DNA of 64,000 bases from Patiria pectinifera (lineage: Eukaryota; Echinodermata; Asteroidea; Valvatida; Asterinidae). The translations under genes and the position numbers were made by a program. Under the pieces are notes generated by a model. That model worked only from the letters and a program-made list of their open reading frames with translations. It was not told the DNA's origin and made no database searches. Positions 4,745-60,231 of this stretch are shown piece after piece. Location of the stretch: positions 2,728,001 through 2,792,000 of the forward strand of contig CM057136.1 of NCBI GenBank assembly GCA_029964075.1, in the 5' to 3' direction. The number at the start of each line of letters is the position of its first letter. Position 1 is the first letter of the stretch.

Positions 4745-5148
4745 TAGTCATTTTTCATCATGTTTACACCAAAAAAGTACATGTACCACAGTATTAAAGG
4801 AAGGGATTTTCACTGTATTTTGTGCATGTCCTAATCCGAACAACGCCGCACAAGAGTACAGTGAATTCAATGGAAATACCATTTATTTTCCACTTGAACA
4901 GGTATCTCATCCTTTCTAGTTTAAACCCTTTCAGCATCATAATATGTCAAAATACCAAAGAAATCGCACAAATGAAGGATAATTGCATAGTAGGCTTACA
5001 GTTAAATGTTTCCCAGGTTGAAGTACTTGTGTTCAGGATGAAAAATTACTACTTTTACGTCCTTTTACAATTCTTTTCTCCACCTTGTAAAGGTCTGTCA
5101 TTATAGAACGATCATCCCTTTTGAAGAGTGACCTTATACTTGGTGAAC

Positions 5149-8100
5149 ATGATGAAGCAGGGAGTTGTCTTCATTTTCCTGTTGATGTTACTTCTGCTAC
5201 CCAGTCCTGGTGGTGGGTATATTCTTTCAGACGTAGACCAAGTAATAGCTTCTCGCCTGGGCTTTTTGAAGAAAAAAAAGGAAAAGGAAGTAGACGGCCC
5301 CTCCGAATATTCGAATTCGAAAATAAATGATTTGAGTAGTTGATAATCGATCCAATATAATTTTGGCACAACCCTACCATTTTTCCCATAGATTGGGGCC
5401 CAAGAATCTTGGGGGGGGGGGAGCCAAAAGGACATCTCCGACGAGATGCGGATTTTCTTCCGACATGCTGATCGATATGTCGAGTTCAAGAGTTAAATAA
5501 TGTACCGTCTTCGCTCTTTGACGAAATTAGATTTTAAATCATAACGAATTCGAAGTACGAGTGTTTCACAACAGAAAGTGTGATCTGAGATTTGGTTTAT
5601 TTCCCCTCTATTTTCAGGCCTCTATAACCCTCTGAAAATATAGAGTTTATTTTAGATTGTTTGTTCGCACATGCGGGTCTCGCCAGTGGGTTGACTGGTT
5701 CCCATCCCTTCAATTATAAAAGGGGCGACAACCAGTCTATCCAGCGAGGCGGCAAAGAATTCGACATATTTCAATTAATTATTCCTTTTATAGTAATTGT
5801 TGGCCATTTCTTTATTTTATTTTTTTCGTTCAATGTCTCATTCAAAAGTTAGTAACTTTTGTATTGCTTTTAAAGCATTAAACAAATGTTATTTTTCGGG
5901 TTGAAACTCGGAAAAAATATATATCTAGCATCTTTAAAGGGCATGTGATGTTTTTGTTCTGCTTGAAAAGAAAATTCTAGATTTAAGGAGTCGTTGGGGT
6001 GTTGGGCTGTTTATTTGTTTGTTTTTCTTTGTTTCTTTGAGTGTTTTTAAACTCTCCTCAAAGCTTGAAACCTAATCTAAACATTCAAATAAGATTGGCC
6101 ATTTTCCTCACTTCAAAAAAAAAAAAATCCAGAATGCTTTGCAAGACGAAGACGCCGATCATCTGTAAAAGCCCCAAAGCCAACTACATGTAAGTAGCCT
6201 TCGGTGTTTAAAGTAAGTTTCTTGGGTTTTTTCCCCTTTTCATGTTTTTCAAGCTATTAGTCACTGGTGCCCTACATCAAGCGTGCCAGTTACAGGGCAG
6301 CGCAGTGGAAGAGGTCAGATGTGCCATCGAGGAAATTCTCTCTCTATATAGAGAGCACATGGCTACATTATTTGGCTGATTTTTTTAGGTTTTTTTACCA
6401 ATAAGTCGGCCACATTGTTTGGCATATTTGCCGCCATATTGGCCGCCATTTTTAATTTGAAGCATGATAGCAAAAAAGGGATACCAGAAATGAATTAGCG
6501 AGGGTAAAAAAACTATAACTTAAAGCGTATTTATAATTTCATCATATTATTAGGCTGATAAATCACTTTTCCATTTTTTTATAAGTGGTTATACAAGGAA
6601 GACAGATCCAGATAATGTGCAATGAAGTTTCAAATACACAATCTCAACTTTCACTTATACATTTTTGGCCAATATATGGCTATTCTCAAATTTGACAATT
6701 TTTGGCAGCCATATTGGCAGCCATCTTGAATTTGGTTCATGGTTGCAAAACAAAAGAATGCATGAAATGAATTTGGCAGGGTTGAAAGCATACCCCGGTA
6801 TATCTAATAATTAAATATATGCATTCATCATATTATTTGGCTGATATATATTATTTTCCTCACATTGACCACTTTTGGCGGCCATATTGGCGGCCATCCT
6901 GTCTGCCATCTTGAATTTGAAACTCGTTAACAAAAAAGGATACAAGAAATGAATTTGCAAGGGTAAAAAATATAACCAAACAATTTACTGATGCTTTTAT
7001 CACATTATTTGACTGATAGGCTATGTGAGGTTTTTACATTTTTGTACCAATTAGGTGGCCATATTGGCTGCCATATTTGTAGCCATATTGGCCGCCATTT
7101 TGAATTTGAAGCATGAAGCAAAAAGGAGTGAATTTGCGAGGGGCAAAACATATAACTAACAATTTTACTTATGAATTTATCATATTATTAGGCTGATATA
7201 TGACTTTTTCCATTTTATTTACCAAAATGGCGGCCATATTGGCCACCAAAGTGGCCGCCATCTTGAATTTGAAGAATGAGAGCAGAAAGGGATACCAGAA
7301 TTGAGTTTTTGAGGTCACATATAACTAACTATTTTATTTATGCTTTTGTCAAACTATTTGTCTGATATATGTCGTTTTCCAGTTTTGCGGCCATATTGGC
7401 TGCCATCTTGGATATCTCCAGATCATCGGATCTTTTAACTGTTAACATCCAAAATGTGTTTTAGGACCTTAAAAGGCACCCCCAAAAATGGTGTAGGTTA
7501 GTTGGGGGGGGCGGTGCACGGGGGGTCGGTCCCCCATAGATACTCCCCTAATAGGCTAGCCAATACGCTGACCGTGTGCCAAACCAAACTATGGGACCAC
7601 TTCTTATTGGGCTCGCTTTATTTTCTTGTTTTCATGACTACAGCTGATACTCAGAGCTATAAGATGTTTGGCGCTGGTGGCGCTTTCCTCGTGTTAGTCG
7701 TTCTTGCTGTGGGTGGTGTCTGCTGGTTAGTATTATCAAAGATCCTATCCGGTTTGTAAGTGTGACGTCATCTCAACTTAGCCATGATGGTGTAGCTTGG
7801 CACCAATGGAACCGGAAGTTAACGCAACTTGAGTGTTTATCCAATGGGCGCTCGTAATCAGTGGTGCGTGCGCGTGTATGACGAAGTCACTTACGAACCG
7901 GATAAGGGAAGATAGGACTCTTGGTATATTTTTGTACGGTGACCTATAAAACACGATGACGTCATCAAATCGGGCTATGGGGAAGGGCGCCCCGCGCCGG
8001 ACGGTAGGTAGGTAAACGTGCGTACGGCTACGCAGAATCTACACTTGAATTAATATTCGAGCGGGATTTTCATTGAAAAAAAAACTTCGAGAAATGAATT

Positions 8101-8710
8101 AAACAAGTGCGAGTGCACAGTTAGCTCTGGCCGTCTTGCATGAAATCTATCAAAATGATCCCTGCCACAGAGCTTTAAAATGCGATGCGACGTTCCAAAA
8201 CTTCAAGTTCCAAAACTGAAGATTTTAACTCTCTTTAGATTCAATATGGCCGACCTGTGAATTAGTCTGGTTCTCTGTCCCCATTGTCCTTCGGACTATA
8301 TGCATGGGGGCCGGGAAACAGTTTACTTGTGAATAAGGCCCATTGGGCCCGCCCAACGCGCACGTGGGCAGCTGTGATTGGTCAAAACTTATCAATGGGC
8401 GTGGCTTAGTAAAGCTTCGAGGTATCATTGGCTGTTTTGTTATAAGGCGGATTATTTAAACTTCCCGGGCACAAGTTAATGTTTTCACTGCGACCACAAC
8501 TTAATGTTTTCTTGTGAGGTGCTTCGATATGTGGTTTCGTATGTGATAGGTATAAGTGAACTATGAATGATGCCATTATGAGCTGGAGTTTTATGGTCTC
8601 GTTTTGTGCGCAGGCGGAAGCGGACCAAGCAACTCACTACTACCGCACCGGCTCCCAACAACGAGAATGCCGAGATGGCGGACGACGATGAACCTGATCC
8701 CGAGATGTGA
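5149..8710 (+). CDS. Three-exon gene for a 90-residue type I single-pass membrane protein
   Basis: Proposed coding exons are 5149-5212, 7644-7755 and 8614-8710, with stop TGA at 8708-8710. Lengths of 64, 112 and 97 give 273 bases, 91 codons. The exon ends are phase 1 then phase 2, and each matches the next start. Donors are GTGGGT (5213) and GTAAGT (7756). Acceptors are TTCATGACTACAG after a T-rich tract (7643) and TTTTGTGCGCAG (8613). Exon 1 encodes a signal peptide: MMKQ, then a run of V, F, I, L and M, then PSPG. After about 12 residues comes a membrane span of roughly 25 residues (AFLVLVVLAVGG to LSKILSG), then RKRTK, then an acidic tail ending DDDEPDPEM. The spliced topology is lumen or outside N-terminus with a cytoplasmic tail. 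I do not recognise a family. Exons 2-3 alone could instead start at ATG 7634 (72 residues). Exon 1 read through would give another small secreted frame, so the weakest link is the exon 1 to 2 junction. No AATAAA is seen just downstream. Confidence 0.6.
6367..7412 (+). repeat. Six-unit diverged tandem array (GGCGGCCATATTGG units)
   Basis: Units begin near 6367, 6548, 6834, 7010, 7187 and 7355. They are about 175-185 bp, except unit 2 (about 286 bp, with an insertion) and unit 6 (partial). Each runs ATTATTTGGCTGATATAT, then GGCGGCCATATTGGC, then GCCATCTTGAATTTGAA, then a segment like AAAGGGATACCAGAAATGAA, then ATAACTAACAATTTTA. The array lies wholly inside intron 1 of the proposed 90-residue gene. 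Divergence between units implies an old array. Confidence 0.85.
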
Positions 8711-9239
8711 ACGGCGGCAGATTTGGACAGGGATCGAGCGAGCCTCATATATTCCCCGGAATCCGGCTCTTGTATTACTTGATAATGATGTTATGTTATT
8801 GGCTCTTTGTTTATTTTGCACACAAGTAGCTATAGGCCTAGTATTCGTCTCTATTAATGTCTCTTCGCTGTCTTTGAATTGATATTTTCGTCCGTATTTG
8901 ATATTTTCTTTTTTCCCTGGAACATTTTTCTTACGAAATGATAAATATTAGATCGTTAAAATTTCATACCCCTTTTTTCTTCCAAAAATGTTTTTTTTTT
9001 TCTCTCCTAACGAAATTTAAAATGTTATGTTTGATTTTAACGAACTTCTTTGCATGTAATGGGCTCAGCTCCCAACACGTTCTGTTATAGACCGTTATCA
9101 TGCTGCCACCATTTCAGTCATGTTCCCTGTATCCAATAACAGTACTAAATGATAATGTGGGTGTGGTTTTTGGGGGGGGGGGGGCAAAAAGGAACCAGAC
9201 TATTTTTCCTTCCAGCCTCGCTTTGGTTACGTTGATTTA
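8711..9239. other. 3' flank of the 90-residue gene
   Basis: This is a likely 3' untranslated region followed by spacer. No canonical AATAAA is visible, so the end of the transcript cannot be placed. A G run at 9173-9183 precedes the old repeat at about 9240. Confidence 0.35.
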
Positions 9240-9655: not shown

Positions 9656-10427
9656 TAAATTGTGAACTGTTGAATGGGATGGTGCCAGACTATTTATGCA
9701 TACTAGCCTAGCTTTCATTTTTTTTTTAATGTGGCTTAAAACATTAGAATATGTTTGATCACAAATTTTCAATTATTCATCAGAGCAGACTGGTATTAAT
9801 TTGTGATTTACTTTATATCATTGCTTTCATTTCTCTTCGCAAGTTCCAAAAATGAACAATTTACCTCGCTTTCAATTTAATATGGCCGACTCGTGAATGA
9901 AGCCCATAGCAATTTCACGAGCAATGGTCGCAGTCCAATATTGGGTTTTTGTTCCCCTGTAAAATGTGACCTGCTATATCATAATGAGGAATAACCCCAC
10001 CTTTGACTTTTAAAGCTACACATGTATCATGTTGAAGCGCAAATCATATTGGCTTTCCAATAATACCAAGTTTATTTCTGTAGCTTAATTGTTTTCCAAA
10101 GATATACCGCAGGAACTTCAACAGTGTCCCTCCGTAGGCCTCATTTCGAGAAGAACGACTTTGAAAAAAGAAGAAGATATGAATTGCGCTGCCACCGGCA
10201 GTGAAAAACGTTCTTCAGTTCTGCCACTCTGGGGGTATTTTCCCCAATAATAATGCATAGCGCAAGTATGAATCTTGAATACCTTGGCTACTCACAAAAA
10301 AATATCGATTTTGACATGGTTTTTCTAGTATCCGACTTCGTTGATTACTCAAAACAAGGTACATGTATTGGGGAACATTCTTTATTTTGCCACAGTAGGT
10401 CACAAATACTCCTAGAACTATGAGGGT

Positions 10428-15502: not shown

Positions 15503-15551
15503 TGCATTTTCATGTCACGGTACACATAAATGTGACATATTTTAAACACCT

Positions 15552-16110
15552 TTAAAGGGAATATACATGTATACATCATTTGCTTTTGCTGTAATTTTCA
15601 GAAATGGATGGAATTGGGGGGGGGGGGTTGGAAATATATAGCAAATATAGTTACACTGACTTTTTTGAGGTTTTGGGTTTGTAAATTGCTATAAAAACCA
15701 AGAAAAACAATCATTTTCCTGTAGTCTGGTTCCCTGACTCCATATAAGAAGAAACAGAGCAGTTTACATACATTGGGGAATTGTAAGGTCAGGGAACCAG
15801 TCTAGCTGGCTTGTACCCGTTCATACATGTGTACATGTAGGTGTGTAATCAATTGCAGACAAGTGCGATGGTCAATTGGGGCCAGTATTTGAAAAAAAAG
15901 CCATTTTTTTCCAACGCTGGTCGGCCGACCAGCGTTGGAAATTGATACAAAAATACCACTTTTCTTGAAAATGACAGTATACCAGGTGCCATGATTTTAC
16001 AGGATGCTTTACACTGTCATTCACTAACAGTCCAGCAAGGTATTTCAAAAATCAAAATGATTTGGTAGTTTTTTTTTTTGATGTTTGCAAATGTTGTATT
16101 TTCCCTTTAA
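15552..16110 (+). mobile_element. Family A miniature element, copy 2
   Basis: TTAA at 15552-15555 and 16107-16110. Left end AGGGAATATACATG...CATCATTTGC; right end GCAAATGTTGTATTTTCCCT. A perfect 32 bp palindrome at 15909-15940 (CGCTGGTCGGCCGACCAGCG core) differs from copy 1 by a compensated base pair. The pair CTGGTTCCCTGAC / GTCAGGGAACCAG at about 15725-15800 forms a second hairpin. Confidence 0.9.
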
Positions 16111-26317: not shown

Positions 26318-26485
26318 ACCTAGTCAGAATGGAAGATGGGGTTAATTTGGATTCAATGTACAGTGTATGCAACTTTCATTTCAAATTTGGCACTTTTGAG
26401 TGGCTGTGCGTAAAATATCTTGCAAAGGAATTTCGGGGTACAAAATATTGGTCCTCAAAAATCGCAGGTCGACCTGAGGCTAGCC

Positions 26486-27011
26486 TTAAAGGGAATATAC
26501 AAGATTTGCTTTTACTGTTATTTTCAGAAATGGATGATTTGGGGGTTATTTTATAGCAAATATTGTTACATTGACTCGTTTGAAGTTTTGTGTTTGTACA
26601 TGTAGATGCTGGAAAAGCCAAGAAAACGATCATGTTCCTGTAGTCTGGTTCCTTGACCCCACATAAAACGAAACGGAGCAATTTATAGATGTCGGGGAAT
26701 TGTAAGTCTACCCCGGTAGCTGGATTTTCATAGGTGCATATTATCGATTGCAAACACAATGCAGACTAACTAAATATGGCAAATTTGGGGCATTATTTAA
26801 AAAGAAAAAGCCATTTTTTTCCAACGCTGACCAGCGTTGGATATTGATACAAAAGTAACACACCGTATTTCTTGAAAATGGCAGCACACCAGGTGCCATG
26901 ATTTTTAATACAGGATGCTTTAGACTGTCATTCACTAACAGTCCAGTAAGGGTATTTCATAATAATTTGGTAGTTTTGTTTTTTGATGTTTGCAAATGTT
27001 GTTCCCTTTAA
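26486..27011 (+). mobile_element. Family A miniature element, copy 3
   Basis: TTAA at both ends (26486-26489, 27008-27011). Left end AGGGAATATACAAGATTTGC; right end GCAAATGTTGTTCCCT. The central palindrome has lost its CGGCCG core, leaving CCAACGCTGACCAGCGTTGG (26821-26840). Confidence 0.9.
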
Positions 27012-34003: not shown

Positions 34004-34405
34004 CTGAATAAGTTCATGCAGAGAATGTACAGTAGTCAATGGGCCTGGCGCATGCACTTTAGACATCTGCTTAATCAATATATAATATCTCTCTATTCAA
34101 TTAATTTCAACTGGACTCTTTTTTGTATTTTTATGGGCTTCTAATTATTAGATAATGTAAGCTTAATTGTAAATGCATAATCGTAAGTTAGAAAAACCCT
34201 TGATTGAATGTTGAAGTGCTGGAAAATACTGAATATTATTAGCATGATAAATTCACGAGACACTCGCCAAAGGCTTGAATTTCATTCCAATAAGTCTAAA
34301 TTACACTTCCAATATAAATTGGCCAAGTCAATTTCATGTATTGTTTTACACACTGTACATGATAAATACATCAAATGAATTGAAAGCTGAATAATATGTT
34401 CATGA

Positions 34406-34953
34406 TTAAAGCCAGAGTCCATCATTTGCAGCTATCCAAAAAGTAACTGGCGTAATTATTGTTGAAAAACATACTTAGTTGAAAGATAGTGAGAAGACTA
34501 AACTCCCTGTGAAATCAGTCTTTCTGGCAAGCTGTCATTTTGAAGAAATCAACAAAAGAAGGCCTTTGGAAATTTCCGTTAGTAGTTCATTTTTTTATTT
34601 GGTGAAGTGTGCGCAAGCATTGACACGACACACACACACGCACGGTTGCTACAATTCGTCGGATCAGTGCGCGACAACGCGATGTCGCGGCGACATCGCG
34701 TAGCTGCAGTCGGCTTAGTGAGAACGTGTTTCAGACGCTGAATTCAGGCCCAATTCAAAACATGATTCATCAACTTTTGATTTGAAAATCAAGACCCTAG
34801 AACGTTGTTTTTCTCAAAATATACAGCAAAAGCTGAGCTGAAACTTCATCAGGTTAGTTGTTAAGCACCCTTCTTTAGATTTTGATCACTTTTGTTGCTT
34901 CAAACGAACAAAATGCACAAATTACAAATGATGGACTGTAGGCCTACCTTTAA
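34406..34953 (+). mobile_element. Family E miniature element, copy 1
   Basis: TTAA at 34406-34409 and 34950-34953. Left end AAGCCAGAGTCCATCATTTG; right end CAAATGATGGACTGTAGG. The centre holds the hairpin CGCGATGTCGC / GCGACATCGCG (about 34679-34701). The inner part of the end, CATCATTTGC, is shared with family A. Confidence 0.85.
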
Positions 34954-35548
34954 TAGATGGCCCACTGTAAAAGGCTTCTATTTCATTTCAATAAGTTTTA
35001 TTGATTTTTTTCATTTTAGTAAATTACATTTGATTTTTTTCAGCAGCAATACTCACTGAGATTATCATTGTGAAACTTTAAATGTTTCAAAATTATATAA
35101 AATTTATTTATGCATTGATTTCTGACTAGGTTTTTTTTTTATTAAACCATGCAACGTCTAGCCCCTAGACTAGCTCTAAATACCAAGTGAACAAAAGCAC
35201 ACATCTTAAAGATGACTACAGTGCAAGTGCAAGTTACGTACATGACTACAACCTCAAACCCTGCAAATACAGTGCCATAAACGTAATTCTAATCCTCAGT
35301 TCACATCTACAGAATATCTCCCAGCTGCATCTTTTTCCCCCCCGTTCCCCAAACCGGATCTCGAATAATCAATTCAATCTTGAGCCCTCCGCATATAACA
35401 TTCAACTGTTTGGTGAAAACTTAAAAGAAAAGCCAGAAAAAGAAGCCATGTTTCTTTTTACAAGTGAAGCCACAAGCATATCGGATTGATCTGTTTAAGC
35501 TATCACTTGAAAGAAAAAAAAATTTCAAAAAAGTGGATTGGATTAGAC

Positions 35549-36079
35549 TTAAAGGGAATGTACATCATTGGCTTTTGCTGTAATTTTCAGAAATGAACTA
35601 TTTGAGAGGTTAGTATAATAGATCAAATATTGTTACACTGACATTTTTGAAGTTTTGTGTTCGAAAAGGTTGGAAAAACCCAGAAAAACAAAAATGTTCA
35701 AGTAGTCTGGTTCCCTGACTCCACACAAGATAAAATGGATTAATTTATAGATGATGGAAAATTGTAAGGCAAGGGAACCAGTCTAGCTGGCCTGCACCCG
35801 TTCATGAACATACAACCAATAGCAAACAAAATTTGGACTGAAAAAATGGTAAATTTGGAGCAGTAGTTGAAAAATAGTTAGGTTTTTCCAACGCTGGTCG
35901 GCCGACCACCGTTGGAAATGTTTACAAAAATACCATTTTCTTGAAAATGACTTCACACCAGGTGCCATAATTTTACAAGATGCTTGAGACTGTCATTTAC
36001 CAACATCGTAGTAAGGTATTTCGTAAAATCTTCGTAGTTTTATTGTTCGATGTTTGCGAATGTTGTATATTCCCTTTAA
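35549..36079 (+). mobile_element. Family A miniature element, copy 4
   Basis: TTAA at both ends (35549-35552, 36076-36079). Left end AGGGAATGTACATCATTGGC; right end GCGAATGTTGTATATTCCCT. The central palindrome is CCAACGCTGGTCGGCCGACC then ACCGTTGG, with one mismatched pair. Confidence 0.9.
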
Positions 36080-42177: not shown

Positions 42178-42467
42178 CAAGGGCGGATCCAGAACACAAT
42201 TGTTTGGGGGGGGGGGGCCAAAAAAAATTTGGTCCCCAAAAAGTGTGTCCAAATTTTTTTTTTGGATTCTGGATGCTCTGTGGTGCGATCTGAGGCAATT
42301 TCTGACCACTTTAACCAATGTTTTTTGAGGAAAAGATGGTGGTGTACTCATTGCCTGCCTTAATTGCGAAGTCACTAAAAGAAAAAAAAAAAGATTCGTT
42401 TTTTTGGGAGGGGGGGGGGGGGGGCATGGCCCCTTTGGCCCCCCCCTCCCCTTGATCCGCCCTTGTG
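42178..42467. mobile_element. hAT-like miniature element, copy 2 (GGCGGATCC ends)
   Basis: Ends CAAGGGCGGATCCAG and CTTGATCCGCCCTTG are good inverted repeats. A G run (42205-42217) and a GGGGG...CCCCCCC block near the right end make the inner ends complementary too. Homologous to 1711-1955. Confidence 0.75.
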
Positions 42468-43329: not shown

Positions 43330-43578
43330 CTACCTAAATCTGGTAAATTGGGAGCAGTATTTGAAGAAAAAAAGTAAGGTTTTTTTCAACGAGCGGCCGG
43401 CCGACGTTGAGAAATTGATACAAAAATTACCCTATTCTCGAAAATGACAGCACACCAGGTGCCATGATTTCACAGGATGCTTGAGACTATTATTCACTTA
43501 CAGCCGAGTTTAAAGTACATTTGTACATTTGTTTTATTTTTGATGTTTGCAAATGTTGTATATTAGCCCTACCTTTAA
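43330..43578 (+). mobile_element. Family A miniature element, copy 5, truncated
   Basis: Only the right half is clear: CAGTATTTGAAG, a damaged palindrome (CAACGAGCGGCCGGCCGACG), GAAAATGACAGCACACCAGG and GCAAATGTTGTATATTAGCCC with degenerate TTAA at 43575-43578. The left end is missing or too diverged. Confidence 0.75.
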
Positions 43579-51234: not shown

Positions 51235-51781
51235 TTAAAGAGAAAGTTAAGTACAAAGTACATCACTGGCATTTGCTGTAATTTTCAGAAATGAACCATT
51301 TGAGGGGTTAATATATTAGATCAAAATTTGTTACACTGACATGTTTGAAATTTTTGTTCGAAAATGCTGGAAAAACGAAGAAAAACAAAAATGTTCAAGT
51401 ATAGTCTGGTTCCCTGACTCCACTAAAGATAAAATGGATCAATTCCCAGATGCCGGAAAATTGTAAGGTAAGGGAACAAGTCTAGCTGGTCTGCAACCGT
51501 TCATGAATATGTAACCAAGAGCAAACAAAGTTTGAACTGAATAAAAAATGGTAAATTTGGAGCAGTAGTTGCAAAATAGTTAGGTTTTTCCAACGGTGGT
51601 TGGCCGACCACCATTGGAAATGTATACAAAAATACCATTTTCTTGAAAATGACTTCACACCAGGTGCCATAATTTTACAAGATGCTTTAGAATGTCATTT
51701 ACCAACATCCTAGTAAGGTATTTCGTAAAAACTTGGTAGTTTTATTTTTCGATGTTTGCAAATGTTGTACTTTCCCTTTAA
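51235..51781 (+). mobile_element. Family A miniature element, copy 6
   Basis: TTAA at 51235-51238 and 51778-51781. Left end AGAGAAAGTTAAGTAC...CATCACTGGC; right end GCAAATGTTGTACTTTCCCT. Central sequence CCAACGGTGGTTGGCCGACC then ACCATTGG keeps most palindromic pairs with changes on both arms. Closest to copy 4. Confidence 0.9.
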
Positions 51782-53412: not shown

Positions 53413-53631
53413 ACGAGTCCTGTTTATAGCACGATTTACTGTGTTTTGTTTGCTGCCCGCAACGAATACACAAACTAACTACTGACGGAAATTTCCAACG
53501 GTGCTTCTCAAAAGTACCCTTTGTACTCATTTCATGACAGAAACAATAGTCGTTTTTATTTCATCACACCTTAGGCTACATATACCCCAAAAATGACGGA
53601 AATGTCTTCGAGCATTCCACAACCTCTTTAA
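53406..53631. mobile_element. Solo arm of a family F foldback
   Basis: From about GAGTCCTGTTTATAGCACG to CCACAACCTCTTTAA it matches one arm of 49278-49768. A few diverged patches include AACTAACTACTGACGG, which resembles family E. It ends at TTAA 53628-53631, which is also the start of the next element. Confidence 0.8.
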
Positions 53632-54195
53632 AGCTGGTTAGAGTACATTTGCAGCTATCCAAAAAGTAACTAACAAAATTATTGTTGAAAATCATACTTG
53701 GTTTAACGATAGTAACTGCACTAAACTCCCTGTGAAATTATTCTTCCTGGCATGCTGTCGTTTTGAAGAAAACAATACAAGAAGGTCATTTCCAAACTCC
53801 AAAGATGCGTCTCAAGACGCATTTTGAAAATTTCTGTTGGTAGTTCGTTTTTAATTCGGCGAAGCCGTGAATGGGTGCGCGCTAGCATTGACATGACGCA
53901 CACATGCCCGCGGTTGCTATAATTCGTCGGTTGAGTGCGTGACTTCGCCTAGCTGCAATCGGCCGAATGAGAACATGTCCCATACGCTGATTTCAGGCAC
54001 AATTCAAAACAACTTTTGAATTGAAATCGAGATCCTAGAATATTGTTTTAACTCGGAATATATACAGCATTCACTGATCTAAATTTCATCAGGTAAGTAA
54101 TAAGCACCCTTCTTTAGATTTTGAGCACTGTTGTTGCTTCAAAAAAATAATAATAAATGCACAAACGACCAAAATTGAAAACACTCTACCTTTAA
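53628..54195 (+). mobile_element. Family E miniature element, copy 3
   Basis: TTAA-AGCTGG at left (53628) and CTCTACCTTTAA at right (TTAA 54192-54195). Interior in the order of copy 1, with its own short hairpin GATGCGTCT / AGACGCATT (about 53802-53822). The left TTAA is shared with the solo F arm. Confidence 0.85.
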
Positions 54196-57488: not shown

Positions 57489-58008
57489 TAAAGGGAAAAT
57501 ACAACATTTGCAAACATCAAAAAATAAAACTACCAAATCATTTTGAAATACCTTGCTGGACTGTTAGTGAATGACAGTGTAAAGCATCCTGTAAAATCAT
57601 GGCATCTGGTATACTGTCATTTTCAAGAAAAGTGGTATTTTTGTATCAATTTCCAACGCTGGTCGGCCGACGTTGGAAAAAAACAGGCTTTTTTTCCAAA
57701 TACTGGCCCCAATTGACCATCGCACTTGTTTGCAATCGATTACGCACCTATGAACGGGTACAAGCCATCTAGACTGGTTCCCTGACCTTACAATTCCCCA
57801 ATGTATGTAAACTGCTTTGTTTCTTCTTATATGGAGTCAGGGAACCAGACTACAGGAAAATGATCATTTTTCTTGGTTTTTATAGCATTTTCGAACCAAA
57901 ACCTCAAAAAAGTCAGTGTAACTATATTTGCTACATATATTTCCAACCCCCCAATTCCATCCATTTCTGAAAATTACAGCAAAAGCAAATGATGTATATT
58001 CCCTTTAA
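57489..58008 (-). mobile_element. Family A miniature element, copy 7
   Basis: Follows a G run (57471-57488) that has replaced the first base of TTAA. The right TTAA is at 58005-58008. It is nearly identical to copy 1 (48-568) through most of its length. The central palindrome is partly deleted (CGCTGGTCGGCCGACGTTGG). Confidence 0.9.
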
Positions 58009-58429
58009 GGGTAGGAGTATAAGGGAGGGGGGAGGTGCAGAAGGGTTTGAGGAAGATGCTCGGTTTATAAGGAGTTGATGAAATCGGCCTCGTGATTAGC
58101 ATTACATGCTTGGGCCCTAGCTGCAGTAATGAAGGCGTGGGTACTTGAGTGTGTTCTGCATCATATGGTTTGACGTAGATATATCGGCTAATTATGCCGG
58201 GAAAGTGGGGCCATGTTTAAGGGAAAGGAGAATGATGATGGTAATGCGTACACTGTAGAAAATGGTTCTGAGAAATAGAAATAATATTGGAAAGGATATT
58301 TCTTATTGTAATCATGTACATACGTGTATAGTCAGTTTGTATTTTGGGAATTAAAGCAAAAAAATAAGTTTTTGCAATTTTTTTTATGGTTAGAATGGGA
58401 GTATTTGCCCTTTCTTAGTCTACAAAACA

Positions 58430-58796: not shown

Positions 58797-59333
58797 TTAA
58801 GGCTTAGTCCATCATTTGTAATTTGTGCATTTTGTTCGTTTGAAGCAACAAACGTGCTCAAAATCTAAAAAAGGATATTGAACAACTAACCTGATGAAGT
58901 TTCAGCTCAGCTTCAGCTGTATATTTCGAGAAAAACAGCATTCTAGGATCTCGATTTCAAATCAAAAGTTGCTGAATCATGTTTTGAATTGGGCCTGAAT
59001 TCAGCGTCCGAGATACGTTCTTAATGAGCCGATTGCAGCTACGTGATGTCGCGCACTGATCCAACGAATTACAGCAACCGCACGCGCGTGTGCGTCGTGC
59101 CAATGCTTCGCTGCTAAACAAAACGAACTACTAATATAAATTTCCTACGGTGCGTCTTAAGAAGCACCGTTGGAAAGGCCTTCTTTGTTAATTTCTTCAA
59201 AATGACAGCTTTCCAGAAAGAACAATTTCACAGGGAGTTTAGTCCCCTTAGTATAGTTCAACCAAGTATTTTTTCAACAAGAATTACGCCAGTTACTTTT
59301 TGGATAGCTGCAAATGATGGACTCCAGCTTTAA
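58797..59333 (-). mobile_element. Family E miniature element, copy 4
   Basis: TTAA at 58797-58800 and 59330-59333. Reverse of copy 1: starts AGTCCATCATTTGTAATTTG and ends GCAAATGATGGACTCCAGCT. An internal GTGCGTCTTAAGAAGCAC hairpin (about 59150-59168) sits near the middle. Confidence 0.9.
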
Positions 59334-60231
59334 CCAATGAGGTTAATTTATGAAGAAATGAAATAGAGTTGAAGCACATGTATTGCCTTTTTTCCGGTTT
59401 TTTTTGTAATTCAAAAGTAAAGGCTTAAGTGCCAGCCTGTCAGTTCTGCTTCCAAAATGTCTGCAACAAAAATGGCCAAACCCTCAGCCAGCTAGTCGCG
59501 ATAATAGACCGAGCAATGTGGCGCTATAGAGTTAAACATTCACCAACTTCTGTCGTGGGCAGATCTCGGAAACCATTTTTATCAGACCAGACGATATTTG
59601 CAGTCACAAAGCCATCTGTAACGTGCCATGCATGTTAATTAGACAATTGGTTGCTAGGCAATGACCAGTCGACATCTATTCAGCGATAAAATTTGTGCTG
59701 GATTTTGTACATGTACATGTAGCGTGGATGTATTTTTACTGTTGCTTGTATTTTATTTTATATTTACAATACCGTAGTTGTGTTTCTGAGGATTACGGTC
59801 AATTTCCTTGTTGTTATAACCACTTCAGTCTGACACAAGTTTGTAAATTAACCATATTTGCACATATTCTGTCCGTCTAGCTACCGGTACTGTTGAGGTT
59901 GTCTAACTCATGAGAGATTCTGTCGGCCCTTATCACACTAATGGTAGATTTTGCTGATTTGCCCGTACAAAAAGCGTGGCAATTTATCTCAATTTGCAAG
60001 ATTTCATGGGAATACTGGCACAGTGCCAATTATATCCCAGCACCATAGGATGGACAACAGGGGCATAGTCCTGTTTTTGACTTCAACTTCCATTTATCCA
60101 TCATGTAGATAACAATTGGGTACATGACTTGTAACTGTTGAGGGGTACCGTGCATGTATGTGTGCATGGAGTCAAGTAGTAAAGTCTGTCACCAGCCAAT
60201 ATAGCCCATCAGGCCAGCGTTAAATTTTGTT
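59334..60231. other. Stretch without recognisable gene
   Basis: A + strand open frame at 59429-59638 starts at GTG and lacks splice context or a family pattern. Nothing else supportable. Confidence 0.4.

Follow-up and report, generated by a model that had tools for sequence, protein, structure and literature searches.

The window, that is, the whole 64,000-nucleotide stretch of Patiria pectinifera DNA analysed here, contains on its plus strand three open segments that are read below as the exons of one small gene. Its parts are as follows.

5093-5148, plus strand: candidate 5' UTR stretch of exon 1, which would need an upstream non-coding exon
5149-5212, plus strand: exon 1, coding part (64 nt), with the ATG at 5149, the putative signal peptide and the first base of codon 22
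5213-7643, plus strand: intron 1, phase 1
7644-7755, plus strand: exon 2 (112 nt), coding for a short ectodomain and the putative membrane span (residues about 31-53)
7756-8613, plus strand: intron 2, phase 2
8614-8710, plus strand: exon 3, coding part (97 nt), with the RKRTK stop-transfer, the acidic tail and the TGA stop

Joined at their GT/AG borders, the three exons give 273 nt, or 91 codons including the stop, and a product of 90 residues. A second in-frame ATG lies at 5152 in exon 1. The sequence gtgggt follows exon 1 directly and tcatgactacag directly precedes exon 2; exon 2 is followed by gtaagt, with an in-frame stop (7757-7759) just past this donor, and exon 3 is preceded by ttttgtgcgcag. 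When the coordinates were re-read, the three segments, their splice signals, the succession of phase 1 and phase 2 and the 90-residue frame matched the sequence-only reading exactly. That reading had also drawn attention to a total of exactly 91 codons; the count is correct and provides no independent evidence, since any chain that stays in frame yields a whole number of codons.

The product shows, by simple hydropathy and charge rules rather than a trained predictor, a signal peptide, a membrane span, a basic stop-transfer and an acidic tail in the order first described. The putative signal peptide has Lys at position 3, no acidic residue, a core with a 10-residue mean hydropathy of 3.56 and small residues at the likely cleavage sites. 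The 19-residue mean hydropathy of the single span peaks at 2.68 from residue 34, and basic residues follow it (Lys 54 and RKRTK at 60-64); residues 54-90 hold 5 K/R and 8 D/E in all. General membrane-insertion rules applied to this layout predict that the product would enter the ER, where residues 1 to about 21 would be cleaved off as the signal peptide, leaving about 9 residues outside, residues about 31-53 across the membrane and residues 54-90 in the cytosol, with RKRTK at 60-64 and then the acidic end. If cleaved after residue 21, the mature part has 69 residues and a mass of 7.4 kDa.

Splicing would join 5212 to 7644 and 7755 to 8614 in a transcript of at least three exons. Scored with consensus matrices and ranked among all GTs (3902) and AGs (3118) of the window, the donor at 5213 is 43rd of the GTs (top 1.1 percent) and the acceptor at 8614 is 17th of the AGs (top 0.5 percent). 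The acceptor at 7644 ranks 146/3118. The donor at 7756 (score 4.63, rank 319/3902) reaches no better than the top 8 percent and is outscored by a competing donor at 7726 within exon 2 (score 5.98, rank 149/3902), whose use would shorten the span and cut the product to 80 residues. The acceptor-like site at 5093, on which the possible 5' UTR depends, scores 7.02 (top 3.4 percent of AGs in the window). Intron 1 lies in phase 1 at codon 22; in animal genes for signal-peptide proteins, phase 1 introns are over-represented around position 20 (PMC1626468), and we count the phase and position of intron 1 in favour of the gene.

Composition differs from exon to exon. Third codon positions of the 90-residue frame have a GC of 0.56, higher than intron 2 (0.452) and the window as a whole (0.389), and purines make up 0.62 of codon position 1 and 0.40 of position 2. 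Exon 3 stands out (GC 0.588; intron 2, 0.452; the 90 bases downstream, 0.456), whereas exons 1 and 2 (0.453 and 0.473) are near flank values, the stretch 7500-7643 having 0.528. Stops are also missing from an unused frame of exon 1 and from an unused frame of exon 3, so an open frame does not set every exon apart. The 3290 bases 3' of the stop contain no AATAAA or ATTAAA and only weaker variants, such as GATAAA at 8940.

The window is rich in repeats, and none of its 71 self-match rows overlaps an exon. Introns and repeats together give the DNA a composition that suggests an animal source. No second copy or paralogue of the gene was found within it; the best other matches have E values of 0.78 (exon 2) and 0.74 (exon 3). 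Within intron 1, a diverged tandem repeat (about 6377-7411; spacing about 160-280 nt) includes five copies of a 49-nt core that has CCATATTGG-like motifs. Dispersed over the window are at least six copies, some in one orientation and some in the other and 71-94 percent alike, of a repeat about 520-560 nt long.

49-568, 15548-16109, 26480-27010, 35548-36079, 51255-51781 and 57489-58014: copies of the 520-560-nt interspersed repeat
43341-43564: part of this repeat

Three long copies (34403-34937, 53628-54165 and 58806-59336; 71-81 percent alike) belong to another interspersed repeat, about 530 nt in length. The segment 41128-41201 matches a tRNA family of Rfam (32.8 bits, cut-off 29), is not called by ARAGORN and is perhaps a tRNA-derived repeat. 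The segments 1727-1871 and 42294-42441 form an inverted repeat pair (76.5 percent alike) within open frames with proline runs.

How readily such a chain of exons could arise from unrelated splice-like signals and hydrophobic frames was judged by enumerating chains with donors of at least 4.6 and acceptors of at least 6.4 on the consensus matrices and introns of 50-3000 bases. The requirements set for the signal peptide, the span and the stop-transfer were placed slightly below the product's own values, and these near-observed thresholds were fixed only once the product had been seen. Under them, the real plus strand has 89 raw chains and one passing locus, with its two in-frame ATGs, the real minus strand has 63 raw chains of which none passes, and no passing chain occurs in 1200 shuffled windows (1-kb blocks, dinucleotides preserved). 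In a further 1000 shuffles the intron limit was raised to 5 kb, or to 4 kb where a chain had two exons; these likewise gave none, and one- or two-exon chains of the same architecture are found neither on the two real strands nor in these 1000 shuffles. The shuffled windows hold a mean of 42.4 raw chains; both real strands are richer than this, which means that the shuffles somewhat understate chance. Relaxing the rules also weakens the separation, as 46 of 1000 shuffles pass mid criteria and 482 of 1000 pass very loose ones, and the sequence-only reading could have accepted other architectures as well. On the real plus strand six chains pass the mid criteria, all of which begin with exon 1 and use 7644 as acceptor, some with exon 2 ending at 7725 or exon 3 at 10138, whereas the minus strand has none; the very loose criteria give 125 chains on the plus strand and 2 on the minus strand. 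Near the observed strength the locus thus beats its shuffled controls, and we consider a chance assembly improbable.

Large receptors often finish with membrane-span and tail exons, and exons 2 and 3 might be the last two exons, coding for stalk and span and for the tail, of a longer type I receptor with more coding exons in intron 1 or upstream, in which case the 90-residue form would be incomplete. The frame of exon 2 is indeed open upstream from 7502. On the other hand, exon 1, which codes for the putative signal peptide, is in phase with exon 2, and Pfam scans of all six frames of the window (E up to 0.1), which could miss domains split across short exons, gave two matches (DUF5453, E 0.0044; AAA_34, E 0.0042), neither of them an extracellular domain. 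We regard the longer receptor as just as improbable as the chance assembly. The AAA_34 match is itself taken as chance; of 12 helicase-like patterns, the loosest alone (KN..P) matched anywhere in the six frames.

Least probable is that the locus holds two separate things. Exon 1 would then be a frame of 64 residues (5149-5343) for a secreted peptide, left unspliced, and exons 2 and 3 would come from a different transcript that starts elsewhere and perhaps uses the hydrophobic stretch immediately before 7644. The frame of exon 1, if unspliced, does stay open up to a stop whose last base is 5343, and in the frame of exon 2 the sequence before 7644 is FLLGSLYFLVFMTTA, then DTQS. Against this, the donor at 5213 is among the strongest of the window, and the sole in-frame ATG before exon 2 in the open stretch (7634) lies 3' of the hydrophobic residues. 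Such residues would be expected there anyway, since pyrimidine-rich sequence ahead of an acceptor is often translated as F and L.

The best reading of 5149-8710 is the one first proposed, a gene of three exons that encodes a small type I membrane protein; we put the probability that this gene model, single-copy in the window and with predicted splicing, is real at about 0.6. Annotation easily overlooks spliced genes for membrane proteins this small.

In a Pfam search the product has six weak matches, each under its curated cut-off. Those to OAD_gamma (PF04277; E 0.00087, 20.4 bits, cut-off 27) and TMEM51 (PF15345; E 0.094, 12.9 bits, cut-off 25.5) extend over span and tail and probably reflect composition. 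Solved structures in the PDB give no match at E up to 10, and neither the 42 pattern matches in viral contigs nor the 529 in prokaryote contigs include a relative. On the evidence of Pfam, the PDB and the prokaryote and viral contigs, the predicted product is assigned to no family.

As to function, the product may act as an accessory subunit whose helix would bind a pump, a channel or a receptor larger than itself and whose charged tail would tune or anchor that partner. This role is a best guess from the layout and is offered tentatively. A small-residue packing face on the helix was considered and dropped, as 5951 of 20000 shuffles were as strong (4816 of 20000 for the core only). If real, the gene would be one more candidate regulator, and no new mechanism is indicated by the evidence.

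The nearest look-alike of the product, compared by eye, is the FXYD family (phospholemman, Na,K-ATPase gamma; PF02038). Both have a similar size, a short ectodomain, one span and a basic then acidic tail, and several FXYD proteins also have a signal peptide. They further share GG, a G eleven residues on, and Ser followed by a basic residue at the inner edge (LSK). The family mark, the PFXYD motif, is seen in the alignment in all six FXYD sequences used and is absent from the product just outside the membrane, where DTQSYKMFGAGG is found instead. Against an FXYD profile the product scores 2.7 bits, and 126 of 500 segment-shuffled controls score as high or higher. BLASTP gives E values of 2.0 (FXYD1), 0.025 (FXYD2), 2.0 (FXYD3), 0.12 (FXYD4) and 0.001 (FXYD6), with no match to FXYD7; the best score over the six (20.8 bits) is equalled or beaten by 49 of 500 controls. 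Taken singly, FXYD6 is the strongest match, with 15 of 500 controls at or above the product (FXYD2, 52; FXYD4, 83). PF02038 is not among the Pfam matches of the product, whereas all six FXYD proteins used do match it. With no PFXYD and with profile and best BLASTP scores that these shares of segment-shuffled controls reach, membership of the FXYD family is rejected. That the product is a lineage-restricted type I microprotein, with no relatives outside its own animal group, and that as an accessory subunit it parallels the FXYD proteins without being related to them, we consider unlikely. The product differs from the ITAM adaptors DAP12 and FcR-gamma in having neither an acidic residue in the span nor a tyrosine in the tail. 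In length and in the order of its parts it matches small type I membrane proteins in general, and the gene probably encodes an ordinary member of that kind.
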